Part shown: one piece after another, positions 46,150 to 64,000 of the stretch
Layout of the letters: every line of letters starts with the position of its first letter
Position numbering within the stretch: position 1 is the first letter of the stretch
Source: a bacterium
GTDB taxonomy: Bacteria > JAJVIF01
Direction: 5' to 3'
DNA length: 64,000 bases
Assembly (NCBI GenBank): GCA_022072165.1
Contig: JAJVIF010000004.1
Location: 143,667-207,666 of the forward strand
Position numbers and translations under genes: made by a program
The notes under the pieces: generated by a model
Told to the model about the DNA's origin: nothing
Database searches by the model: none
Seen by the model: only the letters and a program-made list of their open reading frames with translations

Positions 46150-47058
46150 ATGGGAGATCAACTCGACCAGTTACGGCTGGAGTTGGCCCGTCGGCCCCAG
46201 ACCGGCCCGGCCCCAACTGCGCGCCCCTTCCGTCATGCCCGGGTGCTGGCGATCGCCTCCGGGAAGGGAGGGGTCGGCAAAACCAATCTGGTGGTGAATC
46301 TTGGAACCACGCTAGCCCAGCAGGGGCAGCGGGTCCTGATCTTTGATGCGGACCTTGGACTGGCAAACGTGGATGTGCTGCTGGGGATCTACCCGCCGCA
46401 TACGCTCTATCACGCCCTCTATGGCCAGATTCCGCTGAACGATGTCATTTACCACACACCCAATGGTCTGCAGATTCTGGCGGGAGCGAATGGGGTCGAT
46501 GGCCTCGCGGACCTGCCGGACACCCAGCGCCAGCAGTTGCTGCAACGCCTGGGCTACCTGGAAGAGCAGTACGACTGGCTGATCATCGATTGTGGGGCGG
46601 GGATCGATGCCAATGTCCTCGGCTTCGCCTGTACTGCCGATGAAGTCCTGCTGGTCTGTACGCCGGAACCGACCGCGATGATGGATGTCTATGGGCTGGT
46701 GAAACTGATTCATCAGCGGGGCGGGACACCAGCGCTGCGACTGGTGATGAACATGGTGGATCGTCCGCAGGAGGGAAAAGCAGCAGCGGACGGCATCAAA
46801 GATGTGGCGCAGAAATTCCTCCAGCTGGAGATTCCGCACATTCATTACATCCCGCTGGATCCGCAGCTCCGGCAGGCCGTGCGGCGTCAGCAGCCCCTGG
46901 TCGAGGTCTTTCCTACGAGTCCGGCAGCCAAAGCGATCCGGTCGTTGGCGCACGCACTGGCCGGACCGGGCGACAGTGCCCGTCCGCCGGTGTCGTTCTT
47001 CCAGCGTGTTGGGAAATGGCTGACTGAGTCGCCGCGTCCGCCAGAACCGCTCGGCTAA
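46150..47058 (+). CDS. flhG: FlhG/MinD-like ATPase
   Basis: A 302-residue ParA/MinD superfamily ATPase that limits flagellar number and antagonises FlhF. The deviant Walker A SGKGGVGKTNLVVNLG lies near residues 37-52. The typical FlhG stretch VLIFDADLGLANVDVLLGIY follows, and LIIDCGAGI is the Walker B region. The C-terminal amphipathic tail (FFQRVGKWLTESPRP) probably binds membrane. It lies 165 bases after flhF; TACAAT about 50 bases upstream (near 46095) might give a separate start site. Its last four bases overlap the end of convergent nuoI. Confidence 0.92.
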   Translation: MGDQLDQLRLELARRPQTGPAPTARPFRHARVLAIASGKGGVGKTNLVVNLGTTLAQQGQRVLIFDADLGLANVDVLLGIYPPHTLYHALYGQIPLNDVIYHTPNGLQILAGANGVDGLADLPDTQRQQLLQRLGYLEEQYDWLIIDCGAGIDANVLGFACTADEVLLVCTPEPTAMMDVYGLVKLIHQRGGTPALRLVMNMVDRPQEGKAAADGIKDVAQKFLQLEIPHIHYIPLDPQLRQAVRRQQPLVEVFPTSPAAKAIRSLAHALAGPGDSARPPVSFFQRVGKWLTESPRPPEPLG

Positions 47059-48632
47059 CCTTCGCCGTCGTTTTTCCGCTTCAGCTTCATGAAGAGGCCC
47101 TTTTCTTTCCGCTCATCAGCGGAGAGTTCGGAGGCCTTGCGGCTGTCGTTGAGCCAGAACTCGTAGCGCTCCTGACCCATGTCGCCATAGTCCAGCGGTG
47201 CCCCGGCGGACGCTGATGCGGCAGGGGCTGCCCCCGCCGCCGCGACCATGTCGGGGGAAGCGTTTGCGCCCCGCTCGTCGTTGGCTTTTTTGAGCTTGGC
47301 AAAAACGCCCTTTTCTTTCCGCTCATCGGCGGAGAGCTGCGACGCCTTGCGGTCATCGGCGAGCCAGAACTCATAGCGCTCCTGCCCCATGTCACCGTAG
47401 TCGAACGGCACCAGGGGGCCAGCGGGCATTGCTGCACCACCGCTGCCGCCACCGGCCGCCAGCCACTCGGCGTAGGCAGTCGCACCAGACTCATCGTTGG
47501 CTTTCTTCAGCTTTGCAAACGCGCCCTTGGCTTTGCGCTCATCGGCGGAGAGCTGCGACGCCTTGCGGTCATCCTTGGCCCATGTGTCGTAGGCCTCCTG
47601 CCCGAGATCGCCGTAGTCCATGGCGACCTGTGGCGGAGCGGGACCGACCGCGACTGCGCTACCAGCAGCACCGCCGCCGGAAGCGAGCCACTCGGCGTAG
47701 GCCGTGGCCCCGGACTCATCGTTGGTCTTCTTCAGCTTGGCGAAAGCGCCCTTCGCTTTGCGCTCATCGGGGGAAAGCTGGGACGCCTTGCGCTCGTCTT
47801 TGAGCCAGGTGTTGTACGCCGCTTCTCCGAGCTCGCCATAGTCCATCGCGACCGCTGGAGGCGCGGCTACGGCGGCGACTTTGGCGGCGGGGGCATGGGC
47901 TGGCTTCGGGGGCTCGGGCTTTTTATATTCCTCGCGCTTGCGGGGTTTGAAGCTCAGTCCCTCTGACGGAATGGTGGCGAGTTCCCGCTCGGTAAAGTGG
48001 GTGCCCGCCAGTTCGCGGGTAGTCGCCGGCTGAGCCATGACCCCGACTTCGGTGTCACTGAAGTAGTCGGTGAGTTCGGTGTACTTGGGCTGATAGCCCC
48101 GCAGGACCATGTCGCGGAACTCTTCGCGGGTTGCCTGGCGCTCGATTCCCTTTTCACGCGACAGGTAGAGCGCGGAGTCTTCCCAGCGGGAGTAATCGGA
48201 GTACTCGAACTTCTTGGTCATAATGATGCAGTAGGTGGGGCAGGCCTCGACACAGAGGTCGCAAAAGAGGCACTTGCTGAGATCGACGTTGTACTGGTCC
48301 AGGACGCGGGTCTTGCCATCCATCTGGAAGGTGACCTCGATGCAGTCGATGGGGCAGGCCTCAGCGCAGAGATTGCAGGAGATGCAGATGAGGCCGCCGC
48401 CCGGCTCCAGGAGGAGTTCATGGGCGCCGCGGTAGCGGTCGGCGATCGCCTTCTTCATCTCGGGGTACTCGAGGGTCGCTTTGCCATCAAACCAGGCATC
48501 GACCGACATCTGGAATGTGGTCGCCATCCCCTTGGTGATGCCACTCAGGGGGTTGACTTTGGCGTTGTAGATCGTGGCATCCAGGAACCGTTGCCAGGGG
48601 GTCTTGGGTTGTTGCTGGATCGAGAAGGGCAT
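47055..48632 (-). CDS. nuoI: Complex I subunit NuoI with four-repeat C-terminal extension
   Basis: A 525-residue protein; NuoI is usually about 160-220. Residues 1-~200 are the ferredoxin-like subunit that carries electrons to the quinone site, with two 4Fe-4S motifs CISCNLCAEACP (83-94) and CLFCDLCVEACP (121-132). Residues ~200-262 are a Pro/Lys linker. Residues 264-525 hold four repeats of about 70-75 residues beginning DYG, each with a W or Y-rich helix and R-K-A-S-x-L-S-x-D-E-R-K. The repeats look like a charged helical module. GAGGGAG lies about 11 bases before the ATG. Confidence 0.92.
   Translation of the reverse strand: MPFSIQQQPKTPWQRFLDATIYNAKVNPLSGITKGMATTFQMSVDAWFDGKATLEYPEMKKAIADRYRGAHELLLEPGGGLICISCNLCAEACPIDCIEVTFQMDGKTRVLDQYNVDLSKCLFCDLCVEACPTYCIIMTKKFEYSDYSRWEDSALYLSREKGIERQATREEFRDMVLRGYQPKYTELTDYFSDTEVGVMAQPATTRELAGTHFTERELATIPSEGLSFKPRKREEYKKPEPPKPAHAPAAKVAAVAAPPAVAMDYGELGEAAYNTWLKDERKASQLSPDERKAKGAFAKLKKTNDESGATAYAEWLASGGGAAGSAVAVGPAPPQVAMDYGDLGQEAYDTWAKDDRKASQLSADERKAKGAFAKLKKANDESGATAYAEWLAAGGGSGGAAMPAGPLVPFDYGDMGQERYEFWLADDRKASQLSADERKEKGVFAKLKKANDERGANASPDMVAAAGAAPAASASAGAPLDYGDMGQERYEFWLNDSRKASELSADERKEKGLFMKLKRKNDGEG
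47058..47843 (-). repeat. Four tandem ~70-residue repeats in nuoI
   Basis: Repeats start at residues 264, 339, 411 and 481. Shared pattern: DYG-(D/E)-(L/M)-G-(Q/E)-x-x-Y-x-x-W-L-x-D-x-RKAS-x-LS-x-DERK-x-KG-x-F-x-KLK-x-x-ND. Repeats 1 and 2, and 3 and 4, are the most alike. Confidence 0.85.
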
Positions 48633-48765
48633 GGCTGGCCGCGTCTCCCTCGAAGGGGGTCGCGCCGGTGAGCACGGCGCAACAAAGCGACGTCCGGCGG
48701 GCCGGGCGTCCTAGGAGAGAGTGTACCTGAATCCGGGCGTCAGGTTCAGCGATAATGCGGGGGTG

Positions 48766-49116
48766 ATGATCACTCTGCCACTGGAGGTCCAGGCCCGGCT
48801 CCCCGCGGGCTTTCAGGAATTCCTGGAAGCGCTGGTCCGGCAGTTTGATCCGGAGCAGGTGGTGCTGTTTGGGTCCCGGGCGCGTGGCGATGCCCACCCC
48901 GATTCCGATACGGATGTCCTCGTGGTGATGGATTGCGCTGGCAGTCCACTCCGTCAGGCACAGGAGATCCGATTGTCGATTCCGGTCTCTTTCCCCCTGG
49001 ACCTGATAGTAGTCACCCCGTCATATGCGGCCTCACAGCGCTTACGAACCTATTACGACTTTATCCAGGAAGTGGATGAAGAGGGGATGCTGCTCTATGG
49101 GCGTCACGCCGCATGA
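48766..49116 (+). CDS. MNT-type nucleotidyltransferase
   Basis: A 116-residue minimal nucleotidyltransferase (PF01909 type). VVLFGSRARGDAHPDSDTDV holds the GS-x10-DxD signature. In HEPN-MNT toxin-antitoxin pairs this enzyme adds AMP to the HEPN protein and silences it; I infer the same here from the adjacent gene. The ATG at 48766 is 10 bases after GATAAT (48751-48756), so little or no leader is expected; a GTG at 48763 is an alternative. The next gene starts inside its 3' end. The pair separates nuoI from nuoH. Confidence 0.85.
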   Translation: MITLPLEVQARLPAGFQEFLEALVRQFDPEQVVLFGSRARGDAHPDSDTDVLVVMDCAGSPLRQAQEIRLSIPVSFPLDLIVVTPSYAASQRLRTYYDFIQEVDEEGMLLYGRHAA

Positions 49117-49477
49117 TCTAGTCCGAAAGGCGCGGGCCGACTTGCAGGCAGCAGAATTGCTTGCAGCAGCCAGCCTGGACACGATGGCGGAAAATGTGTG
49201 CATCTGCTGCCAGCAGGCGGCCGAGAAGTATCTGAAGTCTGCGCTACGGTCGCGACGCATCAAGCCGCCTCGCACCCATGACCTGCCACAGTTGCTGGAA
49301 ATCCTGATTACTTGTGATGCTGACTGGAGCCAGTTCAGAGAGGACTGCCTGATGCTCAGTGAGCTCTTGACCCTGCGGTACGTTGGCTCAGCAACCGGCG
49401 AGGATGCCGAGGACGCGCTACATCAGACGCGGGGTCTCGCGCACTTTGCCGAGGCGTGGATTAGCGCAAACTCCTGA
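49097..49477 (+). CDS. HEPN-domain protein
   Basis: A 126-residue HEPN protein (PF05168 type), helical: DLVRKARADLQAAELLAA, ENVCICCQQAAEKYLKSAL, then RSRRIKPPRTHDLPQLLEI. R-x6-H (RIKPPRTH) fits the Rx4-6H RNase motif of HEPN toxins. It overlaps the MNT gene by 20 bases, so they are coupled, in the usual MNT-first order of one subset of pairs. The ATG at 49097 is chosen because upstream residues do not fit the family. It ends 10 bases from the convergent nuoH stop. Confidence 0.85.
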   Translation: MGVTPHDLVRKARADLQAAELLAAASLDTMAENVCICCQQAAEKYLKSALRSRRIKPPRTHDLPQLLEILITCDADWSQFREDCLMLSELLTLRYVGSATGEDAEDALHQTRGLAHFAEAWISANS

Positions 49478-49486
49478 TGAGAGTCG

Positions 49487-51784
49487 CTATCGCGTGTTCA
49501 TGCCGGGGAGGGGCTTGACATCGCCCCAGCCCTGCTGGCCTGGAATCTGCGCTGGCTGCGCAGGGACTTTCTCTTCGGGGAACCGGGCATCCCGCCAGTC
49601 GGGGACATCGCTGGCGGAGGCCGGGGTCGCCATGGAGGCGGGACGGCTCCGGTTGTAGAAGGGTGTGAGCTCGGTGCTCTGCACGATCTCAGCTTTGACA
49701 TCGCCCAGGTTCAGCGACACCGGCTTGTAGCTCACCAGTTCGTTGGCGAGGATGGCGGTGCGCTTCTCAGGGGAACGTCGCTGGCTCAGCGACAGCAGCC
49801 CCAGGGCGATGGGGACCGTGACGAACCACCACATGAGCGCCTGAATCCAGGCGAAGACCTGCGAGATTTCGGGCTGAGCCCGCTCGGTGAGACCGCAGAT
49901 GCTCGCGACGGGCACGATGGCCATCAGCACCAGATGACTGAGACGGAAGTACTTCTGCTCTTCGAGTCCATCCGCCAGCGTGAGGAGCGCCTTGCCGAAG
50001 AACCAGATGCTGGCGATCCAGGCCGCGTCCATGATGATCACGTGGGGAATGACATTCCCGCGCCAGATGTAATTCAGGATCAGCCCATCGAAGACAAAGG
50101 CGATGCTGAAGATCCAGAGGAACGGGGTGAGGTACTTCGCCACCCGGGGATAGCTGTTGCCGAACATGTCCGGGATCAGTGGCAGCATCAGCATCGCCAA
50201 CAGGCAGCGCCAGACCGGCCAGTCGAGGCCCGCGATGGCGTTGTTGTACCAGAGCTGGTAGTTGGTCTGCCGCAGGGTGGTGAAGTCCCAGTCGCTGAAC
50301 TGGAAGTAGGCCACGATGAGGAGATTCACCATGGAGAGGGGCAGCAGGGTCTTCCAGGCGTAATCCATGAGCTGGTCGGGGCGCAGACGCGGGAACGTGG
50401 CGCGGAACCAGATCATCACGTAGATGAGGAAGTACATCTTCAGGAAGAAGCTGAAGAAGTAGATCACCGGCCACTGCTCCGCCAGGGGTGTCATGAACCA
50501 GGGGACCCACCAGGCTCCGAGGAAGCAGAGGGTCGCGATGCTCGCCATGAGGATCATGGCCGCATACTCGCCCAGGAAGAAGAGGGCGAACTTCATGCCG
50601 GTGTATTCGGTGTGGAAGCCGGAGACCAGCTCCGACTCCGCTTCCGGCAGGTCGAAGGGTGAACGGTTGGTTTCAGCAGTGGCCGTAATGAAGAAGACCA
50701 CGAAGCCGATGAGCATCGGAATCAGGAACGGAATACCGCCGGTGACCATGATCCAGCGGATGGGAGAGCGCTGCTCATAGCTGATCCGGACCCGGTCGGG
50801 ATCCCAGCCCTCCGGGAGGGCGGCCGCCGCGAGGAGCTCCAGCGCGATCGGTTCCCGGTCCGGCTGCGCCAGGGCCACCGGATCGAGCTGCCCGACCGTG
50901 TCGCGGTTCGCGCCGATCCGGACAATCGTCAGGCCGTTGCGCTTCATCACCTGCGACAGGGGGGCGTTCTGTTCGGTCCATTCCGTGGGCGGTGCGACCC
51001 CCAGGCTGCTGGCCGCATCGCTGGCAAATCCATCCCGGACTTCGGCGAGCCGGGCATCGATGCTGGACTGGGTGACATCGCTGCGATACCCGACATAGGC
51101 GACATCAATGGCGTAGTCCCGGGCCAGCGGACGCCAGCGGGGTCCCTGCTTGAGCGCGACATCCTTCAGGGAGAGGGAACCGGTCATCACCACGACTGCC
51201 AGGAGCGACAGGACCATCGGGACTTCGTACGACACCACCTGGGCCACGCCGCGCATGGAGCCGAAGATCGAGTACTTGTTGTTCGAGGCCCAGCCCGCCA
51301 TGAAGACGCCGATGGCGGTGATGGACGACATCGCCAGGACCAGCACGACGCCGGTGTTCAGGTCGGCAGGCGCCCAGACCTTGAAATCGCGCAGGACTTC
51401 GTTGCCGACTTCGCGGAAGCCCTCGCCCCAGTAGCCGCCCATGCCGACCACGGCAAAGCTGACGAACACCGGGATGAAGCAGACCAGGGGGGCGAACCAG
51501 AACGGGATGGGGTCCGCGTTCTTCGGGGTGATGTCTTCTTTCTGGATCAGCTTGATGGCATCGGCAATGGTCTGGAGCCAGCCCCGGGGGCCGACCCGGT
51601 TTGGGCCATAGCGATGCTGCATGAAGCCCAGGACTTTGCGCTCGATGAGGACCGTAAAGGTGACCAGCGGAAGGACAAAGAGAAACGCGAGGAGTAAGAA
51701 GACGAGGATGTAATTGACCAGCGTCCCGATGGGTTCGGGAATCCGGCCGAGAGCGTCTTCGAGGGCGATGAACCATTGGGTCAT
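49487..51784 (-). CDS. nuoH: Complex I subunit NuoH with large insertion and C-terminal extension
   Basis: A 765-residue membrane subunit; NuoH is usually 320-420. Core NuoH motifs are clear: [20 protein letters not shown] and [20 protein letters not shown], then [40 protein letters not shown] and [20 protein letters not shown]. Between VALKQG and SPIRW (~203-345) there is an insertion of about 140 residues, mostly soluble ([20 protein letters not shown]). After ~500 there is an extension with about four more membrane segments and a Pro-rich soluble tail. The ATG at 51784 has AAGGAG 11 bases upstream. NuoH forms the quinone channel with NuoB and NuoD. Confidence 0.93.
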
Positions 51785-51844
51785 GCGCGTGCTGACTCCT
51801 TGTCCCACAGGCTGGCCTCCGGCGATCCGCCGGACACCACAAGA

Positions 51845-51918: not shown

Positions 51919-52542
51919 TTAAGGGGCAGGGAGGACCTGATAGGTAAAGGATGTCGGGAGGCTGCAGGCGGCGAGGCCGATGATACAGGCTGCGACCGTT
52001 CCGGTGTAGGTCCCCGGCGCTCCGAGCGTCACTTCCGTGGCGTCTCCGGCACTGACATTCGGAGTCGCGCCTCCACCGAAGTCCCAGCCGATGCCATCAG
52101 CGGCCCTATCCAGCGTGACTGTGAAGATGACTCGCTGGCCAGTGACGCCAGCGACTCCGGCTGGCAGCACGGACTGCACCACCGGTGCCTGATCCGAAGG
52201 GGCGATGGTGAAACTGAAGCTGAACGGATCCGAGCAGCCCATCACATTGCAGGCTTTCACCCGACCGGTGTAACTCCCTGGCTTGGCCAGGATCATGCCC
52301 GGAGAGGAATCGCCAGAGGTGCGGGGATGTGTCGCACCATCGAAGTTCCACTCCCAGGAGGTGGGCGCTTCGGTGGCCGTAGCGTTAAAGATGACTGTGG
52401 CATTCGCTTTCCCGACCACGCCAGTCGGCGAGACCGCCGTGATGGTGGGGGCCGCGAAGGGTCCCTCGTTTTGGAAGTCGCAACTGGTCAGGCTCAGCGA
52501 GCCTCCGAGGAGGACCAGCGCGACGATGGTGGTGTGTTTCAT
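51919..52542 (-). CDS. Lipoprotein with two PKD-like domains
   Basis: A 207-residue lipoprotein: [21 protein letters not shown] with lipobox LTSC. Two PKD-like domains fill the mature part: [20 protein letters not shown] with [12 protein letters not shown], and [20 protein letters not shown] with [15 protein letters not shown]. The first is a close relative of the domain at 4457-5857. TACGCT lies 7 bases before the ATG, with no Shine-Dalgarno, so transcription is probably leaderless. It lies between nuoH and an LRR gene, which does not suggest a complex I role. Confidence 0.8.
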
Positions 52543-52549
52543 GACACAA

Positions 52550-52555
52550 AGCGTA
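52550..52555 (-). promoter_or_regulatory. -10 element, probable leaderless start
   Basis: TACGCT on the minus strand, 7 bases before the PKD lipoprotein ATG. No clear -35. Confidence 0.45.
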
Positions 52556-52609
52556 ACGCTTTATGGCGCACGTTTCGTGTGCACTGTCACAATACTTTGC
52601 GACTCCGCT

Positions 52610-54010
52610 TCAGATCAGTTCTTCCCGTAGCAGAGACTCCAGGGGGCTCAGGGCTGGCTCGGGGAGCGGCATCGGGACCACCTGCTGCAGCATCGGCAAG
52701 GGAACGTGGTCTCGCTGTAGCACCAGGATCCCCCGGGTCTGCAGTGCACCCTGCTGGCGATCCCAGTCAGGATTCGCCACCTGGCACTGACGGAGGATCA
52801 CCGTACTCAGGTGCTCCATCGTCTGCAGGGCCGCCGGTGCTTCGAGCGTGACGCCTTCCAGCAGCAAAACCTGCAGCGCTGGGAGTTCCGCGACTTCAAG
52901 TGCATTGCAGTTCCCCTGCCCACTGAGGCGCAGGACTTCCAGGTGGGGATGACCCAGCAGTCCTGCCAGTTGGGGAGTGTCCGAGGCTTCCAGGGCGAGC
53001 TGGGTCAGCGCGGGCAGGTCTGCCAAGGGCGTCAGGACAGGAGCGGTGGCACAGACCAGGGTCAGTTGGCGCAGCTGCGACAGCCCGGCCAGCGGAGACA
53101 GATCCAGGACCGACGTGGTCGCGATGGTCAGGACCTCCAGGTCCTGCAACGTTGCCATGGGCATCAGGCTGGTGAAGGCGCCGCTGACATGCAGCTCGCG
53201 CAGCGAGGGGGCCGCCGCAAGTCCTGTCAGATCGCGGATGGGATTGCCCCGCAGATCAAGGACCTCCAGGGAGGGGAGCGCGGGGAGACTGGTGAGGCTG
53301 GTCAGGTTGTTCCCAGACAACAGGAGTCTTGTCAGGGCGGGCTGGTCTCCCAGCCCCTGCAGGGAGTCGAGCTCATTCCGCGCCACTGAGAGCGACTGCA
53401 GTGACGACAGAGTCGACAGCGGAGCCAGCGAGGTGAGCTGGTTGTCATCGAGGGTGAGATGGGTTAACTGCGATTTGCGCGCGAGGGGGGCGAGATCGGT
53501 CAGCTGATTGCCCGCAAGGGCGACTTCCCGCAGGTCGGACAGACTCTGCAGCGCCCGGATGTCGCGCAACCGATTGCGGCTGACATCCAGCCGCTGCAGG
53601 GATGTCACCTGCGACAACGGAGTCAGGCTGGTGATGGCATTGCCCTGCAGACGCAGCGTCTGCAGCTCCTGGCATTCCTGGAGCCCGGTCAGGTCGCGCA
53701 GCCCCCTGGACGGCGCGATGCACCAGGTCAGTCGCTGCAGATCACTGGTAGAAAGCGCCCTGATCTCAGCACTGGCGGCGGCATCCGGGCTCAGGCTCTC
53801 CCGGAGGGACTCTCCCAGCTGGTCCAGGAGCGCGGTGGCTGCTGGCGCAGGGGGCAGTTGCTGTTGCAGGGCCTGGGCGAGGGCCGGGTCCGGAATGGGA
53901 GTCCGGGCTGTCGGCTGCCAGGGCAACGGCCCATTGGCTGCCAGCAGGGCCCCGGGCAATCCCAGGAGGAGGAGTAGGGCGAGGGGGAGGGGGAAGGTGT
54001 CGTGTCGCAT
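52610..54010 (-). CDS. Exported leucine-rich-repeat protein
   Basis: A 466-residue protein with a signal peptide (LPLALLLLLGLPGALLAANG). Residues ~105-380 hold about twelve LRRs of 22 residues in the internalin style (LQTLRLQGNAITSLTPLSQV, LTHLTLDDNQLTSLAPLSTL, LEVLDLRGNPIRDLTGLAAA). Pattern L-x-x-L-x-x-N-x-(I/L)-x-x-(L/I). No membrane anchor, sortase signal or enzyme motif is seen, so it should be secreted or periplasmic and bind protein. The ATG at 54010 starts directly before the signal peptide. It is in the gap between nuoH and nuoD. Confidence 0.85.
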   Translation of the reverse strand: MRHDTFPLPLALLLLLGLPGALLAANGPLPWQPTARTPIPDPALAQALQQQLPPAPAATALLDQLGESLRESLSPDAAASAEIRALSTSDLQRLTWCIAPSRGLRDLTGLQECQELQTLRLQGNAITSLTPLSQVTSLQRLDVSRNRLRDIRALQSLSDLREVALAGNQLTDLAPLARKSQLTHLTLDDNQLTSLAPLSTLSSLQSLSVARNELDSLQGLGDQPALTRLLLSGNNLTSLTSLPALPSLEVLDLRGNPIRDLTGLAAAPSLRELHVSGAFTSLMPMATLQDLEVLTIATTSVLDLSPLAGLSQLRQLTLVCATAPVLTPLADLPALTQLALEASDTPQLAGLLGHPHLEVLRLSGQGNCNALEVAELPALQVLLLEGVTLEAPAALQTMEHLSTVILRQCQVANPDWDRQQGALQTRGILVLQRDHVPLPMLQQVVPMPLPEPALSPLESLLREELI

Positions 54011-54175
54011 GGCACTTCTGAGACGCCATACCCGCTGGTATGGTTTCACTCAAAATGAGATTTTTTCAGGCCGCGAGGCCAAAGCCAGCATTAACACTGG
54101 AGACGCAGAGACTGGGAATCACGACAGGGAGTCGCGCTGACAGGCGGTCTGACGGGGGCCGTTGAGCTTCTGGAG

Positions 54176-55327
54176 CTACTTATCCACCTCGCCCAGGACG
54201 ATGTCCACGGACCCCAGGGCGGCCACGATGTCACCAATGGGGAGTCCCGCGCACATCGGATTGATCGACTGCAGATTGATCATGCAGGGACTCTTGATGT
54301 GCATCTTGTAGGCGTTCTTGCTGCCATCAGTGACGAGGTAAATCCCGAGTTCGCCCCGGGCCCCCTCGACACAGGCGTAGGTCTCGCCCTTCGCCGGCTT
54401 CAGAGTCTTGGGGACCTTCCCCATGTATTCCCTGGAGGTGTCAGCCATCAGCCAGTCCCAGCACTGCTCCACCATTTTCAGGGACTGCTGCATTTCTTCC
54501 CACCGGACCTCAAAACGCCCAAGGATGTCGCAGCGGTCGCTGACTGCCATCTCGAAGTCGAGTTGGGGATAGATGGAATAGGGCTTGTTTTTCCGGATGT
54601 CGTAGGCGACGCCACTGGCGCGGAGCATCACGCCGGACATGGAGTAGGCGATGGCCTGCTCCGGGGTCAGGACCGCGACATTCTTCGAGCGGGCGTGGAA
54701 GATTTCGTTGGCGTTAAAGAGGTCGTAGTACTGCTGCATCCGGGCGGGGAACTCATCGCAGAAGGCGCGGATCATCCGCATAGCCTTCCGGGTGACATCG
54801 CCCATCACGCCGCCGATGCGGATGTAGTGGTAGGTCAGACGCGCGCCGCAGAGTTCCTCGAAGATGTCGACAATCTTCTCCCGCTCCCGGGTGGCGTAGA
54901 AGAGCATGGTGGTGGCCCCGATGTCGAGGCTGTAGGTGCCGAACCAGAAAAGGTGGGAGGCGATGCGCTGGAGCTCATCGACCAGCACCCGGATGTACTC
55001 GGCCCGTTCCGGGATCTCGATGCCGGCGAGGTCCTCGATGGCGAGGCAGGAGACGTGGTTATTGATCATGGCCGCCAGGTAGTCCCAGCGGTCGGAATAG
55101 GGAATCATCTGATAGAAGGGGTGGGTCTCGTTGAGCTTCTCATCGCAGCGATGGAGGTACCCAAAGACCAGGTCGGCGTCTTTGATGATCTCGCCATCGC
55201 AGCGCAGGATCAGACGGAGCACCCCGTGCGTGGAGGGATGCTGCGGTCCCATGTTGAGGAGGTATTCCTCGGACCCTTCGATGGTCTTTTCGATCGCGCG
55301 CTGGGTGCGTGTGAGCGTGTAGGTCAT
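54176..55327 (-). CDS. nuoD: Complex I subunit NuoD
   Basis: A 383-residue subunit of the quinone module. MGPQHPSTHGVLRLILRCDG, then FGYLHRCDEKLNE, and the end GDIVAALGSVDIVLGEVDK are the classic NuoD motifs; the HPSTHG His and the Tyr in the quinone pocket region are present. Length is normal and it is not fused to NuoC. It is separated from nuoC by two GNAT genes, a HAD-like gene and repeats, so it is likely transcribed on its own. The core motifs suggest a functional subunit. Confidence 0.95.
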   Translation of the reverse strand: MTYTLTRTQRAIEKTIEGSEEYLLNMGPQHPSTHGVLRLILRCDGEIIKDADLVFGYLHRCDEKLNETHPFYQMIPYSDRWDYLAAMINNHVSCLAIEDLAGIEIPERAEYIRVLVDELQRIASHLFWFGTYSLDIGATTMLFYATREREKIVDIFEELCGARLTYHYIRIGGVMGDVTRKAMRMIRAFCDEFPARMQQYYDLFNANEIFHARSKNVAVLTPEQAIAYSMSGVMLRASGVAYDIRKNKPYSIYPQLDFEMAVSDRCDILGRFEVRWEEMQQSLKMVEQCWDWLMADTSREYMGKVPKTLKPAKGETYACVEGARGELGIYLVTDGSKNAYKMHIKSPCMINLQSINPMCAGLPIGDIVAALGSVDIVLGEVDK

Positions 55328-57415: not shown

Positions 57416-58195
57416 TTACTTGCCGGCTTTGCGTTGCGCCGAAAGGGCTTTGGCGAGGCGGATCCGCTCGGCCATGTCCATCTTCGCGACCGGCCCGTCG
57501 GGCTTTACCGCGATCTCCCCTTCCGGAGCAGCCGCGGTCGCGGCGGGTGCGGGGAGGGCTTCCTTCGGCGCGTTCTTCGCCCGGACCTTCTCCTCTTCCT
57601 TCAGGAGCATGTCACGCCAGCCGCGCGGAAGGACCGCCTGGATGGCATCGAGATCCTCGACTCGCCCCTTCCAGGGGTAGTCCTTGCGCAGGGGGTGGCC
57701 GATGAACTCGTCCTGGAGCAGGATGCGGCGGAGATTCGGATGCCCTTCGAAGAGGATGCCGTACATGTCATACGCCTCGCGCTCCATGTAGTCCGCGCCG
57801 GGCCAGAGATCGCAGAGGGAGGGGCTCATCGGGGCTTCCCGATCCTGCCCGGTCAGGTCGATGCGGAGCACCAGATCGCCCCCGCTGGGCAGACTGGCGA
57901 GGACATAGACGATCTCGAAATGCGTCAGCCAGTCGATGGCGGTGGCATCGCGGCAATAGTTGAGCGGCAGGGCTTCGTAGTGGCGCAGAAACTCCGCGAC
58001 TCCCCGGACCTGGGAGGTGCCGGACAGGCGGATGGACGGCTTGCGGTACACCGTGCCGTCGGCTTCCAGGCGGGCGGTGTCGAAGCGACCCAGGAGCTGG
58101 GGGATCAGCTGCTCAGCAATGAGGGCCTTCGCCGGGGCTTCCGGATCCGGGTAGGCATCCTGGGGGCGAACGAAGGTCGAGGCGGCATCAGCCAT
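57416..58195 (-). CDS. nuoC: Complex I subunit NuoC
   Basis: A 259-residue subunit of the peripheral arm. The family block [20 protein letters not shown], then [20 protein letters not shown], is intact. The N-terminal ~90 residues are variable, as usual. The C-terminal ~55 residues are an added Ala/Pro/Lys tail ([19 protein letters not shown]) with a basic helix at the end ([17 protein letters not shown]), similar in flavour to the tail on NuoI. AGGAG lies upstream of the ATG. It follows the DUF3592 gene on the same strand. Confidence 0.93.
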
Positions 58196-58290
58196 AGTCT
58201 CGGGCCGCTCCTGTCTTTCAGCACAGGCGAAGTGTGAGCACCGGGGTCATTGTACGCACAGATGGCGGGATGCTCGGACCAGGCACGCTT

Positions 58291-58879: not shown

Positions 58880-59383
58880 CTAGGCCGAGAGCGCTGAGAC
58901 CGAGGGACGTCCCTCCTGCAGCATCAGACGCTGCAGTTTCATGATCCCCTCGATGAGGGCCTCAGGACGGGGCGGGCAGCCGGGAACATAGATGTCCACA
59001 GGAACCACGAGATCCACGCCCTGTACGACGTTGTAGGAGCCCTTGTAGGGGCCGCCGGAGATCGCGCAGGAGCCCATGGCGATAACCCGTCGGTGACTCG
59101 GCATCTGGTGATAGAGCTTCACCAGGTCCTTCACCATCCGCTGATTGACGGTGCCGGCGACGATCATCACATCGGCCTGACGCGGGGTGGCGCGAAAGAC
59201 CTCCGCACCGAACCGCGCGAGGTCGAAGCGGGCGGTGGTGGAAGAGATCATCTCAATGGCGCAGCAGGCGAGGCCGAAGGTCAGCGGCCAGATCGAATGC
59301 GCCCGGGCGGCATTGAGCAGCGAGTCGATTTTGGTGAGCACCACGTTGGGTGGCAGTTCGGTGTAGGTTTTGATTAGTCCCAC
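58880..59383 (-). CDS. nuoB: Complex I subunit NuoB
   Basis: A 167-residue iron-sulphur subunit carrying cluster N2, next to the quinone site. [15 protein letters not shown] holds the paired Cys, [20 protein letters not shown] the third, and [18 protein letters not shown] the fourth. All cluster ligands are present and the length is normal. It overlaps nuoA by 10 bases, so they are translationally coupled. It is followed by the DUF3592 gene on the same strand. Confidence 0.95.
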
Positions 59384-59799
59384 TGCAGGTACCCCTTGCG
59401 CCAGGCATAGGCCCAGCCGACGATGAGCAGGAAGATAAAGACCAGCATTTCGCCATAGATGCCGAAGCCCAGCGAGAGGAGCTCCCCGGAAACCGCATGG
59501 GAGGGGCTCTTCATGTGCTGAAAGACGGTCGCCCAGGGGAAGAAGAAGATGATTTCGACGTCGAACACGACGAAGAGGAGGGCGAAGTAGTAGTAGCGGA
59601 TGTTGAAGCGGATCCAGCCCGACCCGAAGGGGTCTTCACCGCACTCGTAGGTGGTGAGCTTTTCCGGGTAGGGGTTGCGCCAGCGGAGGTACCACGCGAC
59701 GCCATACATGATCATCGTCAGCAGGAACGTGCCGGTCGTGAATGCCAGCACCCAGCCATACAGGGGCCAGGTCGGGATGGGATTCCACTGGGGAGCCAC
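59374..59799 (-). CDS. nuoA: Complex I subunit NuoA
   Basis: A 141-residue membrane subunit with three helices. Core motifs are [20 protein letters not shown] (Cys of the family), [20 protein letters not shown], then a last helix ([20 protein letters not shown]). I chose GTG at 59799, giving a family-like N-terminus ([20 protein letters not shown]). The upstream ATG at 59994 would add 65 residues of repeat-like sequence. GAGG lies 14 bases upstream, so the start is uncertain. First gene of the nuoA-nuoB pair, divergent from nuoJ. Confidence 0.9.
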
Positions 59800-59934
59800 G
59801 GCCGGAGCGTACCTCGAAGCAGGTGAGCAACCTGTTATGCACCGCCAGCGGGCTGGAGGTGGAAGCGGAGTCGATTGTAGCGGAAATGGGAAGCGGGGGA
59901 AAGTTGCGGGGGCTGGCGGGGTCAGCGGCGGCTG

Positions 59935-60375
59935 CGTGAAGAGCCCCCGGTCGCTGCGCGACCACCCCCGCAAGCGGGGGGGGACCCACATCATCGATGC
60001 GACTGCGAGTGCGCCTGCGCCGGATTAGTAGACCCCCTCCCCAGCCCTCCCCCGGACCAAGGTCCAGGGGAGGGAGCCAGAGGGTGAGCGACCGACGCAA
60101 AGTGCCGCTGACTGCTCCCCCCCACCCGACCTTGGTCGGGGGGAGGGACAGGGACCAGTGGCCCAAGCGCCGGAGCCCAGGCCCTTACCGGAACCCCGGA
60201 CCGCTATCCGGAGCCCGGGTCTTTAGACCCGGGACGTGATGTGGTGCCAGTACGGGTGAACGCGCTTCCGTGTAGGGGACACAAGTCCCCCGAAAGCAGG
60301 TGAGTTACTACGTCCCGACAGCGATTTCGCGTCCCAGGTCTAAAGTCCAGAGCTCCGACTGCAGCGCTGGCGTCG
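59935..60375. repeat. Palindromic intergenic repeat cluster, copy 3
   Basis: This fills most of the 730-base gap between divergent nuoA and nuoJ. Elements are a CCCCCGCAAGCGGGGG-type hairpin near 59966, CCCTCCCC-C-GGACC-AA-GGTCC-A-GGGGAGGG near 60050-60078, CCCGACC-TT-GGTCGGG near 60125-60142, CCCGGGTCTTTAGACCCGGG (60214-60233) with the GACGTGATGTGGT tail, and a degenerate CCAGGTCTAAAG at 60334. The parallels to copy 2 are close. The remaining ~150 bases before nuoJ (60376-60529) show nothing clear. Confidence 0.8.
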
Positions 60376-60529
60376 TTCTGATTTGAGGTTCTTCGCCCTT
60401 CGGTGCCGCATCCCAATTCATGCGGATTCGGTTGCCTTTGCCGCAGGGGTCCGCTACCCTCTCGGGCTGTGCCGCGCTGGGTGCGCGGCATATGTTTGCC
60501 ACGTCCGTCCTGGGGGAGGCTGCCTCGCG

Positions 60530-61264
60530 GTGGATCCGCAAAGCATCCAGGAATGGCAGGGCTGGGACAAACTCCCGATCCTCCATTTCCTCATCCTGAG
60601 TGCCACCATCATCGGCGCCGCGCTGGCGGTGGTCTCCCTGCGCAACCTCGTCCATGCCGCCCTCTGCCTGGTGATTGTCTTTGGCGCGACCGCCGGCTTC
60701 TTCCTGTTGCTGAACGCCGAGTTCCTCGCCTTCGCCCAGGTGCTGATCTACATGGGTGGCATCAGCATTCTGATCCTTTTCGCCATCATGCTCAGCCGCA
60801 AGCTCGTGGGCTGGGACATCGTGATGAGCAACCGCCAGTCGATCCCCGCCGCCATTGTCTGCACGCTCTTCGGCGCGATTCTGCTGATGCCACCGCCGAT
60901 TGGGATCCTGCATTCGGTCGACTGGACCCCCGAGCCGAGCCTCCAGCTCACCAAGCAGTTGCTGCTGGAGAATCCCGAAATGGCAGCCACGGCCCGGGAC
61001 TACTTCAAGACCGACCTGGTGGCCTTTTTCGAGGCCGAAGAACGGGCCGCTGCCGCAGAGGATCGTCCCCCCCTCACCAGCATCAGCATCACGAACTGGT
61101 ATGGCCCGAACACCCTGACCCTGGGTCAGAGCCTGATGAGCACCTATACCCTCATCTTCTGGGTCGCAAGCTTCCTGCTGACCGTGGCGATGATCGGCTC
61201 CCTCTACATCGCGCGCAAGGATGATGGGATCCAGGTGGATCCCCGGGAAGGAGAGGTGCTCTAG
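60530..61264 (+). CDS. nuoJ: Complex I subunit NuoJ
   Basis: A 244-residue membrane subunit with five helices. The family block AEFLAFAQVLIYMGGISILI with LFAIML is clear. A soluble insertion of ~70 residues lies before the last helix (NPEMAATARDYFKTDLVAFF, EAEERAAAAEDRPP). I chose GTG at 60530, 11 bases after GGGAGG, which gives a start close to the first helix. An ATG at 60383 lies near the repeats and adds non-membrane sequence. The stop abuts the nuoK ATG directly. Confidence 0.92.
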   Translation: MDPQSIQEWQGWDKLPILHFLILSATIIGAALAVVSLRNLVHAALCLVIVFGATAGFFLLLNAEFLAFAQVLIYMGGISILILFAIMLSRKLVGWDIVMSNRQSIPAAIVCTLFGAILLMPPPIGILHSVDWTPEPSLQLTKQLLLENPEMAATARDYFKTDLVAFFEAEERAAAAEDRPPLTSISITNWYGPNTLTLGQSLMSTYTLIFWVASFLLTVAMIGSLYIARKDDGIQVDPREGEVL

Positions 61265-61648
61265 ATGCTCCCGCCCGACATCCAGTACAACCACCTGGCG
61301 GTCCCGAATCTGGCGTGGTACCTGAACCTCGGGGTCATCGTCTTTCTGATCGGGCTCTATGGGGCCATGACACGCCGCAACGCCATCGCGATCCTGATGT
61401 GCCTCGAAATGATGCTCTCGGGCATCAACATCATGTTCGCGACCATGGCCGAGAAGTGGGGTGTCACCTTCACGCTGCAGTCGTTCCGGCTGGCCAGCAA
61501 TGTTCCGACCCCCATCGGTCAGATCTTTGTCGTCTTCATCATCACGGTGGCTGCGGCTGAAGCGGCCATCGGGCTGGCGCTGATCATCGCCATGTACCGG
61601 CACTTCCGGTCAGTCCAGGTGGAGGAGATCAATCTGCTGCGCTGGTAG
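61265..61648 (+). CDS. nuoK: Complex I subunit NuoK
   Basis: A 127-residue membrane subunit, an antiporter-like proton channel part. Three helices with the conserved Glu in LMCLEMMLSGINIMF and the second Glu in VAAAEAAIGLALI, both needed for proton transfer. It starts at the base after the nuoJ stop, with GGAGAGG about 10 bases upstream. An N-terminal stretch of about 15 residues before the first helix is slightly longer than usual. Confidence 0.95.
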   Translation: MLPPDIQYNHLAVPNLAWYLNLGVIVFLIGLYGAMTRRNAIAILMCLEMMLSGINIMFATMAEKWGVTFTLQSFRLASNVPTPIGQIFVVFIITVAAAEAAIGLALIIAMYRHFRSVQVEEINLLRW

Positions 61649-61662
61649 CGGACCCCATAGCC

Positions 61663-64000
61663 ATGCCCCTGGGAATCCTCGCGATGGATGCGACTCAAGC
61701 CCTCGACCTGGCGCAGCTGGTCCCCTTCGGACCGCTGACCAGTCTGGCCATCATCTTCCTGCTTCTCCTCTTTGTCCCCAAGGGGGTCCGCGAGTCGGGT
61801 CCCTTCGCGCAGCTCTGTGGCTGGATCTCGGTAGCGGGCATCGCGACGACCGGTCTGCTCGCGACCATGATCTGGATGGCGTTCTTCCGCGGCGACTTTG
61901 CGGCGGAAATGACGCTGGCTGGTGGTGGGGGACTGGCCAGGGAATACACCTGGAGCATGCTCGGCTCCTGGCCGATGAAGGTCGGGATCATCCTCGACCC
62001 CCTCGCCATCACGACCCTCTTTATGGTCGGCTGGGTCGCGACCATGATTCAGGTCTTCTCCATCGGGTACATGCATGGCGAGGCGCACTTCCCGCGCTAC
62101 TTCGCCTATCACTCCCTTTTCGTGACCGGGATGCTCATTCTGGTCATCTCCGACAACTTCCTGACCCTGCTGGTCGGCTGGGAGCTGATGGGGCTCTGCT
62201 CCTATCTGCTCATCGGCTTCTATACGAAGAAGGCTTCGGCGAACGCCGCGCAGCTGAAAGCGTTTCTCACCACGCGTCTGGCCGACATGTTCATGCTGCT
62301 CGGCATCGCGATGGTGATGGGATTTGTGATCCAGGCGAATGCGACCGGGATGCGCCCCCCCGGCAAGGAGATCACGGCGCGGGTCATGGCAGGCGAGATC
62401 TCCAGCCAGTACGCCACCTGGCAGGATGTGTCGAAGACGTCGTTCCAGTTCGCGACCATTCAGCAGACCATCGCGCAGACGCTGGCTGCCGATCCGGCGC
62501 AGGTGTCAGAGTCCGGACGTCCGAATCCCCAGCTGAAGTACTACGGCGCGCTGATGATCGCCGCCTTCCTGGTGTTTGTTGGAACGATGGGGAAATCGGC
62601 GCAGTTCCCACTCCATATCTGGCTGCCCGATGCGATGGAGGGTCCGACCCCGGTCTCGGCCCTGATCCATGCCGCCACGATGGTCGCCGCCGGGGTTTAT
62701 CTGATCGCGAGGACCTACTTCCTCTTTGACCCCCTCAATGTGGGGGTGAGTCCTGCATTGCTGGCCCTGGCAGTGATCGGTGGATTCACTGCCCTCTGGG
62801 CCGCGACCATCGGGCTGGCGCAATACGACATCAAGCGGGTCCTGGCGTACTCCACCCTCTCGCAGCTCGGCTACATGGTGGCGGGGCTGGGGGTTGGAGC
62901 CTACGCCGCCGGGGCGTTCCACCTGGTGACCCACGCATACTTCAAAGCGCTGTTGTTCCTGGGGTCCGGGGCGGTCATTCTCGCGTGTCATCACAACCAG
63001 GACATGCGGTACATGGGGCGGCTGTCGAAGTACCTGAAGTGGTCCTTCTACGCCTACATGATTGGTTACCTGGCTCTGATCGGCACCCCCGGTCTCGCGG
63101 GGGCGTTCTCCAAAGACGCCATCATCGTGGGAGCCTTCGACCGGCTCCACGGCGAAGGGGGCGTGCTCTATCCCTTCGTCTTCTGGTGTCTGATCCTCGG
63201 TGCGTTCCTGACGCCCCTGTACATGACCCGCCAGATGGCCATGATCTTCTATGGCCCGAAGTACCGTGGCGACGAGAACCCCGATGCCCACGGACATGGG
63301 CACGATGCTGCGGCGCATGGACACGACGATGCACACGGGCATCACGAAGTCGCGCACGCTGAGGATCATGCTCACGCTGCGGTCCATGACGGCCACGGCG
63401 CGCATGACGCGCATGACGGCCATCATGGCGGAGAGCCTCACGAGCAGCCGGTCATCATCTGGGGTCCCCTGATGGTGCTGTCGCTCTTCACGGTCCTCAT
63501 CGGCTGGTTCTACGCGCCGCATGGCCCCTTCCTGACGAAGCTGTCGGTTCCCTCCCTGGATCACCATGCCTTCGGCGGGGTCCCCACCGTGTTTGCCAGT
63601 GCCTACTACCCCAAGAGCTGGATGGGTGGGCATCACGATGACGGGCATGGCGATGAGCACGGCGCGGGGCATGGCGACGAGCATCATGAGTCGGAGTACT
63701 ACCCGGGTCTGGTGAAGTACGCGGGTCACGAGCCGGTGGTCGCCAGCCACGACACCCATCTGATCGTGGAGTGGGCCATCTTCCTGATGGCGCTCCTGGG
63801 GGTCGGGGTGGGGTATCTGATCTACGGCAAAGACGCGCCCATCGTGTTCGGGATGCGGAAGGATGCGTTCAAGGCGACCCCTCAAGGGGCCGCGCTCTTC
63901 CGGCTGCTGAACAACAAGTACTACATCGATGAGATCTACGCGGCGTACATCATCACGCCGTTCTTGGTCTTCACGCACTGGTGCCGGGCGTTTGACACGT
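61663..64000 (+). CDS. nuoL: Complex I subunit NuoL (3' end beyond the window)
   Basis: A large antiporter-like subunit; 779 codons are visible and the frame is still open at the edge. The core is clear: LLVGWELMGLCSYLLIGFY, LHIWLPDAMEGPTPVSALIH, then ATMVAAGVYLI, and KRVLAYSTLSQLGYMVAGLG. Between two later helices there is a His/Asp-rich loop (63270-63440; AHGHGHD, HGHHE, AHDGHHGG) and a second one at 63625-63695 (GGHHDDGHGDEHGAGHGDEH). These are not part of model NuoL. The ATG at 61663 has no good ribosome-binding site; ATG at 61684 is the alternative. It follows nuoK by 14 bases. Confidence 0.93.
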   Translation, partial: MPLGILAMDATQALDLAQLVPFGPLTSLAIIFLLLLFVPKGVRESGPFAQLCGWISVAGIATTGLLATMIWMAFFRGDFAAEMTLAGGGGLAREYTWSMLGSWPMKVGIILDPLAITTLFMVGWVATMIQVFSIGYMHGEAHFPRYFAYHSLFVTGMLILVISDNFLTLLVGWELMGLCSYLLIGFYTKKASANAAQLKAFLTTRLADMFMLLGIAMVMGFVIQANATGMRPPGKEITARVMAGEISSQYATWQDVSKTSFQFATIQQTIAQTLAADPAQVSESGRPNPQLKYYGALMIAAFLVFVGTMGKSAQFPLHIWLPDAMEGPTPVSALIHAATMVAAGVYLIARTYFLFDPLNVGVSPALLALAVIGGFTALWAATIGLAQYDIKRVLAYSTLSQLGYMVAGLGVGAYAAGAFHLVTHAYFKALLFLGSGAVILACHHNQDMRYMGRLSKYLKWSFYAYMIGYLALIGTPGLAGAFSKDAIIVGAFDRLHGEGGVLYPFVFWCLILGAFLTPLYMTRQMAMIFYGPKYRGDENPDAHGHGHDAAAHGHDDAHGHHEVAHAEDHAHAAVHDGHGAHDAHDGHHGGEPHEQPVIIWGPLMVLSLFTVLIGWFYAPHGPFLTKLSVPSLDHHAFGGVPTVFASAYYPKSWMGGHHDDGHGDEHGAGHGDEHHESEYYPGLVKYAGHEPVVASHDTHLIVEWAIFLMALLGVGVGYLIYGKDAPIVFGMRKDAFKATPQGAALFRLLNNKYYIDEIYAAYIITPFLVFTHWCRAFDT

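Follow-up and report, generated by a model that had tools for sequence, protein, structure and literature searches.

A lineage-restricted tail of tandem repeats on the NuoI subunit of a probable 11-subunit complex I

The NuoI protein encoded in the stretch of 64,000 nucleotides analysed here, referred to as the window, ends in a long tail built from tandem repeats, and this tail is an old, selectively maintained and lineage-restricted extension of a known subunit. Such an arm would illustrate how a core subunit of the respiratory chain can gain a repeat domain of its own. We tentatively suggest that the tail may be a lineage-specific docking arm for an electron donor at the input end of an 11-subunit complex I, a possible role that is deduced from comparisons with other complexes and in which our confidence is limited.

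Architecture of the NuoI protein

The nuoI-like gene was located on the minus strand (47055..48632), where a single open reading frame with an ATG start codon and no internal stop codon encodes 525 amino acids. The core (residues 1-205; 48018..48632, minus strand) is of the NuoI type and contains two CxxCxxCxxxCP motifs for 4Fe-4S clusters, CISCNLCAEACP and CLFCDLCVEACP. The best family for the core was TIGR01971 NuoI (E 2.7e-31), with a score of 107.7 bits, which is slightly below the cut-off of 113.05. The assignment to NuoI was also supported by the surrounding genes, since nuoA, B, C, D, H, J, K and the gene for an antiporter-like subunit are all present within the window.

The core is followed by a linker of 58 residues that is rich in K, E, P and A (residues 206-263; 47844..48017, minus strand) and by the repeat block, which covers residues 264-525 and coincides exactly with the 47055-47843 segment delimited in the first-pass annotation. 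The repeat units begin with DYG at residues 264, 339, 411, and 481. Repeat 1 (75 residues, 264-338; 47619..47843, minus strand) consists of a hairpin, an end that contains a Trp residue and a Gly/Ala/Pro linker, and is followed by repeat 2 (72 residues, 339-410; 47403..47618, minus strand), repeat 3 (70 residues, 411-480; 47193..47402, minus strand), in which the AYAEWL end is eroded, and repeat 4 (45 residues and the stop codon, 481-525; 47055..47192, minus strand), which is truncated after the second helix. The four tandem repeats after NuoI and a linker described in the first-pass annotation were thus recovered with their coordinates, but only three of the units are full-length, the third with erosion, and the fourth is truncated. 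The same annotation held that more than half of the protein is additional, and we counted 393 residues past the second cluster motif, as compared to 32 to 97 in 30 other NuoI proteins.

A search with repeat 2 as the query recovered the other three copies at E-values of 3.6e-29, 8.2e-22, and 9.9e-16, which is far beyond chance. The repeat copies were 60% to 82% identical in protein sequence over 45 codons, with 26 columns invariant across all four copies, many of them charged, and four 119-nt copies were discernible in the DNA (47080-47849) with 71% to 81% identity to the reference copy. The net charge is about -1 to -2 per repeat, and there is a basic stretch on the second helix.

A model of two repeats, built from a repeat alignment of three rows and therefore of modest confidence, predicted the hairpins H5-17/H27-56 and H80-92/H102-131, with pLDDT values of about 73 to 87 over most of the helix residues and below 50 in the linker. 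The repeat may thus fold into a helical hairpin, with the linker remaining disordered, and the charge count and the model together agree with the earlier description of the tail as charged and helical. A full-length model of NuoI from the single sequence had a mean pLDDT of 38 and was set aside.

Age and distribution of the repeats

The silent differences between the repeat copies affected 46% to 67% of the silent sites (pS 0.46-0.67), whereas the differences that change the amino acid affected 9% to 27% of the sites (pN 0.09-0.27). The pN/pS ratios of the six repeat pairs, which are not independent of each other, ranged from 0.16 to 0.49 (Fisher P 0.012 to 2e-7). Since the silent sites have diverged far and the amino-acid-changing sites little, the repeats are old and have been maintained at the protein level. 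The far-diverged silent sites also exclude a recent copy, so that a duplication introduced by the sequence assembly was rejected.

A profile of the repeat matched only the nuoI gene in the window among 385 genomes, with no match in the 384 others. The first-pass annotation had asked whether the repeat occurs in other proteins of the same genome, which was not borne out: repeat 2 recovered no further copy and no second protein with the module. It had also considered that the extension could be present as a separate gene in close relatives, but no repeat copy was identified in the three nearest genomes in the comparison (G001-G003), which belong to the same class and not to the same order, family or genus. 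With a single open frame and no separate copy in these relatives or in the genome itself, a separate gene or a fusion artefact was rejected. No relative of the repeat was identified by tblastn searches of plasmids and phages, nor among the GTDB r220 contigs and viral contigs, which were screened with exact peptide patterns that can miss diverged copies.

The repeat could not be placed in a known repeat or domain family. Nothing convincing was obtained from Pfam (best E 0.045) or from the PDB sequences, where the best match was short (exendin-4, E 0.0056), the best PHROGs match (E 0.006) fell in the linker outside the repeats, and a Foldseek search of the repeat model against the PDB gave no match. 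The exendin-4 match reflects a resemblance to the Trp-cage of the 'AYAEWLASGGG...PAPP' ends of repeats 1 and 2 (47418-47702), and the likeness of AYAEWLxxGGG, restricted to these two repeats, is likely to represent chance or a local mimic. Two further candidates were discarded, namely a weak match elsewhere in the genome, at C1:481202, obtained with the whole NuoI as the query (E 0.005), which lies opposite another long frame and was not recovered with the repeat query, and a match to NDUFS5 (E 0.8), which was attributed to chance.

Two complexes I in one genome

The subunits A to D and H to K could be assigned for the complex I to which this NuoI belongs, with genes that are scattered and have unrelated genes between them. 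On the minus strand, nuoI is accompanied by nuoH (49487..51808), nuoD (54176..55327), and open frames for nuoC (57419..58246, start not fixed), nuoB (58883..59635, residues 95-241 matching) and nuoA (59377..60024, residues 92-215 matching). On the plus strand are an open frame for nuoJ (60344..61261, matching from residue 79), nuoK (61265..61645) and an open frame for an antiporter-like subunit, nuoL by position, that runs past the end of the window (61561..64000). A second antiporter-like subunit follows just past the window (G000:C4:208740), and a third one on contig C2 is a candidate for NuoN, which gives three genes of the antiporter family (two on contig C4, one on C2) outside the operon on contig C1 described below, with L, M, and N identified by position only.

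It was also noted that the NuoH protein comprises 773 amino acids, with an insertion of about 120 residues and a C-terminal extension of extra hydrophobic segments, as compared to 366 amino acids (open frame) for the copy on contig C1. The NuoH proteins of the class relatives are also large (open frames of 781 to 787 amino acids), with the insertion located elsewhere in G001 and G003. A nucleotidyltransferase/HEPN gene pair of the toxin-antitoxin-like MNT/HEPN type (48715-49474, plus strand) is located between nuoI and nuoH on the opposite strand, and another such pair and a further HEPN gene were observed past the window (L070:5346-6159, L070:15927-16313). Genes for a PKD-domain protein and a leucine-rich-repeat protein (51919-54049, minus strand) split the nuo genes between nuoH and nuoD.

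No genes for NuoEFG were present in this locus. The genome also contains a complete operon for a 14-subunit complex I on contig C1 (about 860730-879000), in which NuoF and NuoG scored above the curated cut-offs. Two genes of the NuoF type were identified in the genome, one in the C1 operon and the other a NuoE/NuoF fusion beside the alpha subunit of a formate dehydrogenase (839.6 bits, cut-off 666). All of the NuoG-like proteins examined in the relatives scored below the NuoG cut-off.

In a tree inferred from the NuoI cores, the window copy grouped with the NuoI proteins of the three class relatives (support 95/82), whereas NuoI of the C1 operon was placed elsewhere, outside the class lineage. 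This suggests that the C1 operon is of a different origin than the complex I of the class, and that the repeat-bearing NuoI belongs to the class-typical complex, which probably has 11 subunits. The complex encoded in the window might, however, share the NuoEFG module of the C1 operon, which would weigh against the docking role discussed below.

Possible roles of the tail and comparison with known systems

The first-pass annotation suggested that the repeats could bind a partner or another complex. It did not include the observation that this NuoI is part of a second complex I whose locus lacks NuoEFG, a context that makes a position and a role for the tail plausible. In Escherichia coli, the C-terminal extension of NuoI (139-180) touches NuoG, NuoE, NuoF, NuoB, and NuoD, which is the input side (PMC8357420), so that in an enzyme lacking the NADH module the tail would emerge from the face through which electrons enter. 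Ferredoxin drives the cyanobacterial enzyme and docks on NdhI/NdhH, where a distance of 9.6 A separates its cluster from N6a (PMC6992706). Taken together, a flexible arm of four hairpins at this face would most simply be a donor dock. NuoI would act as the iron-sulphur subunit for electron input in an 11-subunit complex I that lacks NuoEFG, and its short charged tail would have been lengthened in this lineage by a linker and an internally duplicated helical-hairpin module, resulting in four mini-domains on flexible Ala/Gly/Pro linkers. By analogy with the E. coli complex, the arm would originate near the site occupied by the NADH module in the 14-subunit enzyme and may hold or recruit a soluble donor near the first NuoI cluster as a multivalent dock, with ferredoxin or a dehydrogenase such as an NAD-type formate dehydrogenase as candidates. 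The absence of repeats in three class relatives of the same NuoI lineage indicates that the arm is inessential to this kind of enzyme. It also weighs against docking that the net negative charge of the repeats provides no obvious basic lure for acidic ferredoxins. Docking of more than one donor has been proposed for the 11-subunit enzymes (PMC11238625), and an elongated arm of repeats on NuoI would offer a ready bait for the partner. The stronger version, in which a new family of helical-hairpin repeats forms a multivalent arm on the 11-subunit complex I from which the donor could be fished directly, we regard as unlikely.

The tail could instead wrap the peripheral arm or meet the enlarged NuoH and thereby hold the complex together, as do the tails of NuoI, NuoB, and NuoF in E. 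coli, which stabilise the complex and overlap accessory subunits (PMC8357420). However, those tails are extended, single-copy and 22 to 45 residues long, whereas the tail here has repeated compact modules with linkers modelled as disordered, and the enlargement of NuoH is class-wide while the repeats are not; such a stabilising role seems somewhat improbable. A role in clustering or in supercomplexes is doubtful; in this reading, the four equivalent modules would interact with one another, with the membrane or with a further complex, and in this way arrange the enzymes within the membrane. Their repetition on flexible linkers and the many charged positions among the invariant columns are in keeping with multivalent binding, but the genome was found to contain neither a partner repeat nor another protein that carries the module. 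Similarly, we find little reason to favour an expansion under weak constraint, in which a disordered charged tail grew by duplication and simply remained soluble and helical with no specific partner. The short K/E-rich tails of the relatives do vary in length and the ends of repeats 3 and 4 are eroded, but the low pN/pS ratios, the far-diverged silent sites and the invariant columns point to a specific constraint.

With regard to known systems, the donor-docking arm proposed here would belong to an enzyme that resembles the 11-subunit complex I of Desulfitobacterium hafniense (PMC11238625) in having genes for A to D and H to N in a locus that lacks NuoEFG, but differs from it in the scattered genes, the enlarged NuoI and NuoH and the additional 14-subunit complex I. 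The cyanobacterial NDH-1, with NdhI and NdhS/NdhV, is likewise devoid of NuoEFG and has additions around the donor site, which there consists of a hairpin loop of NdhI, NdhH and separate small subunits rather than tail repeats (PMC6992706). NuoI of E. coli shares the C-terminal addition, but as an extended, repeat-free segment of 42 residues, as compared to about 320 residues with four repeats here (PMC8357420). The class relatives G001 to G003 have NuoI proteins of the same lineage with a charged, K/E-rich tail at the same place; these tails extend for 64, 79, and 97 residues after the second motif and are repeat-free, whereas the tail of the window NuoI extends for 393.
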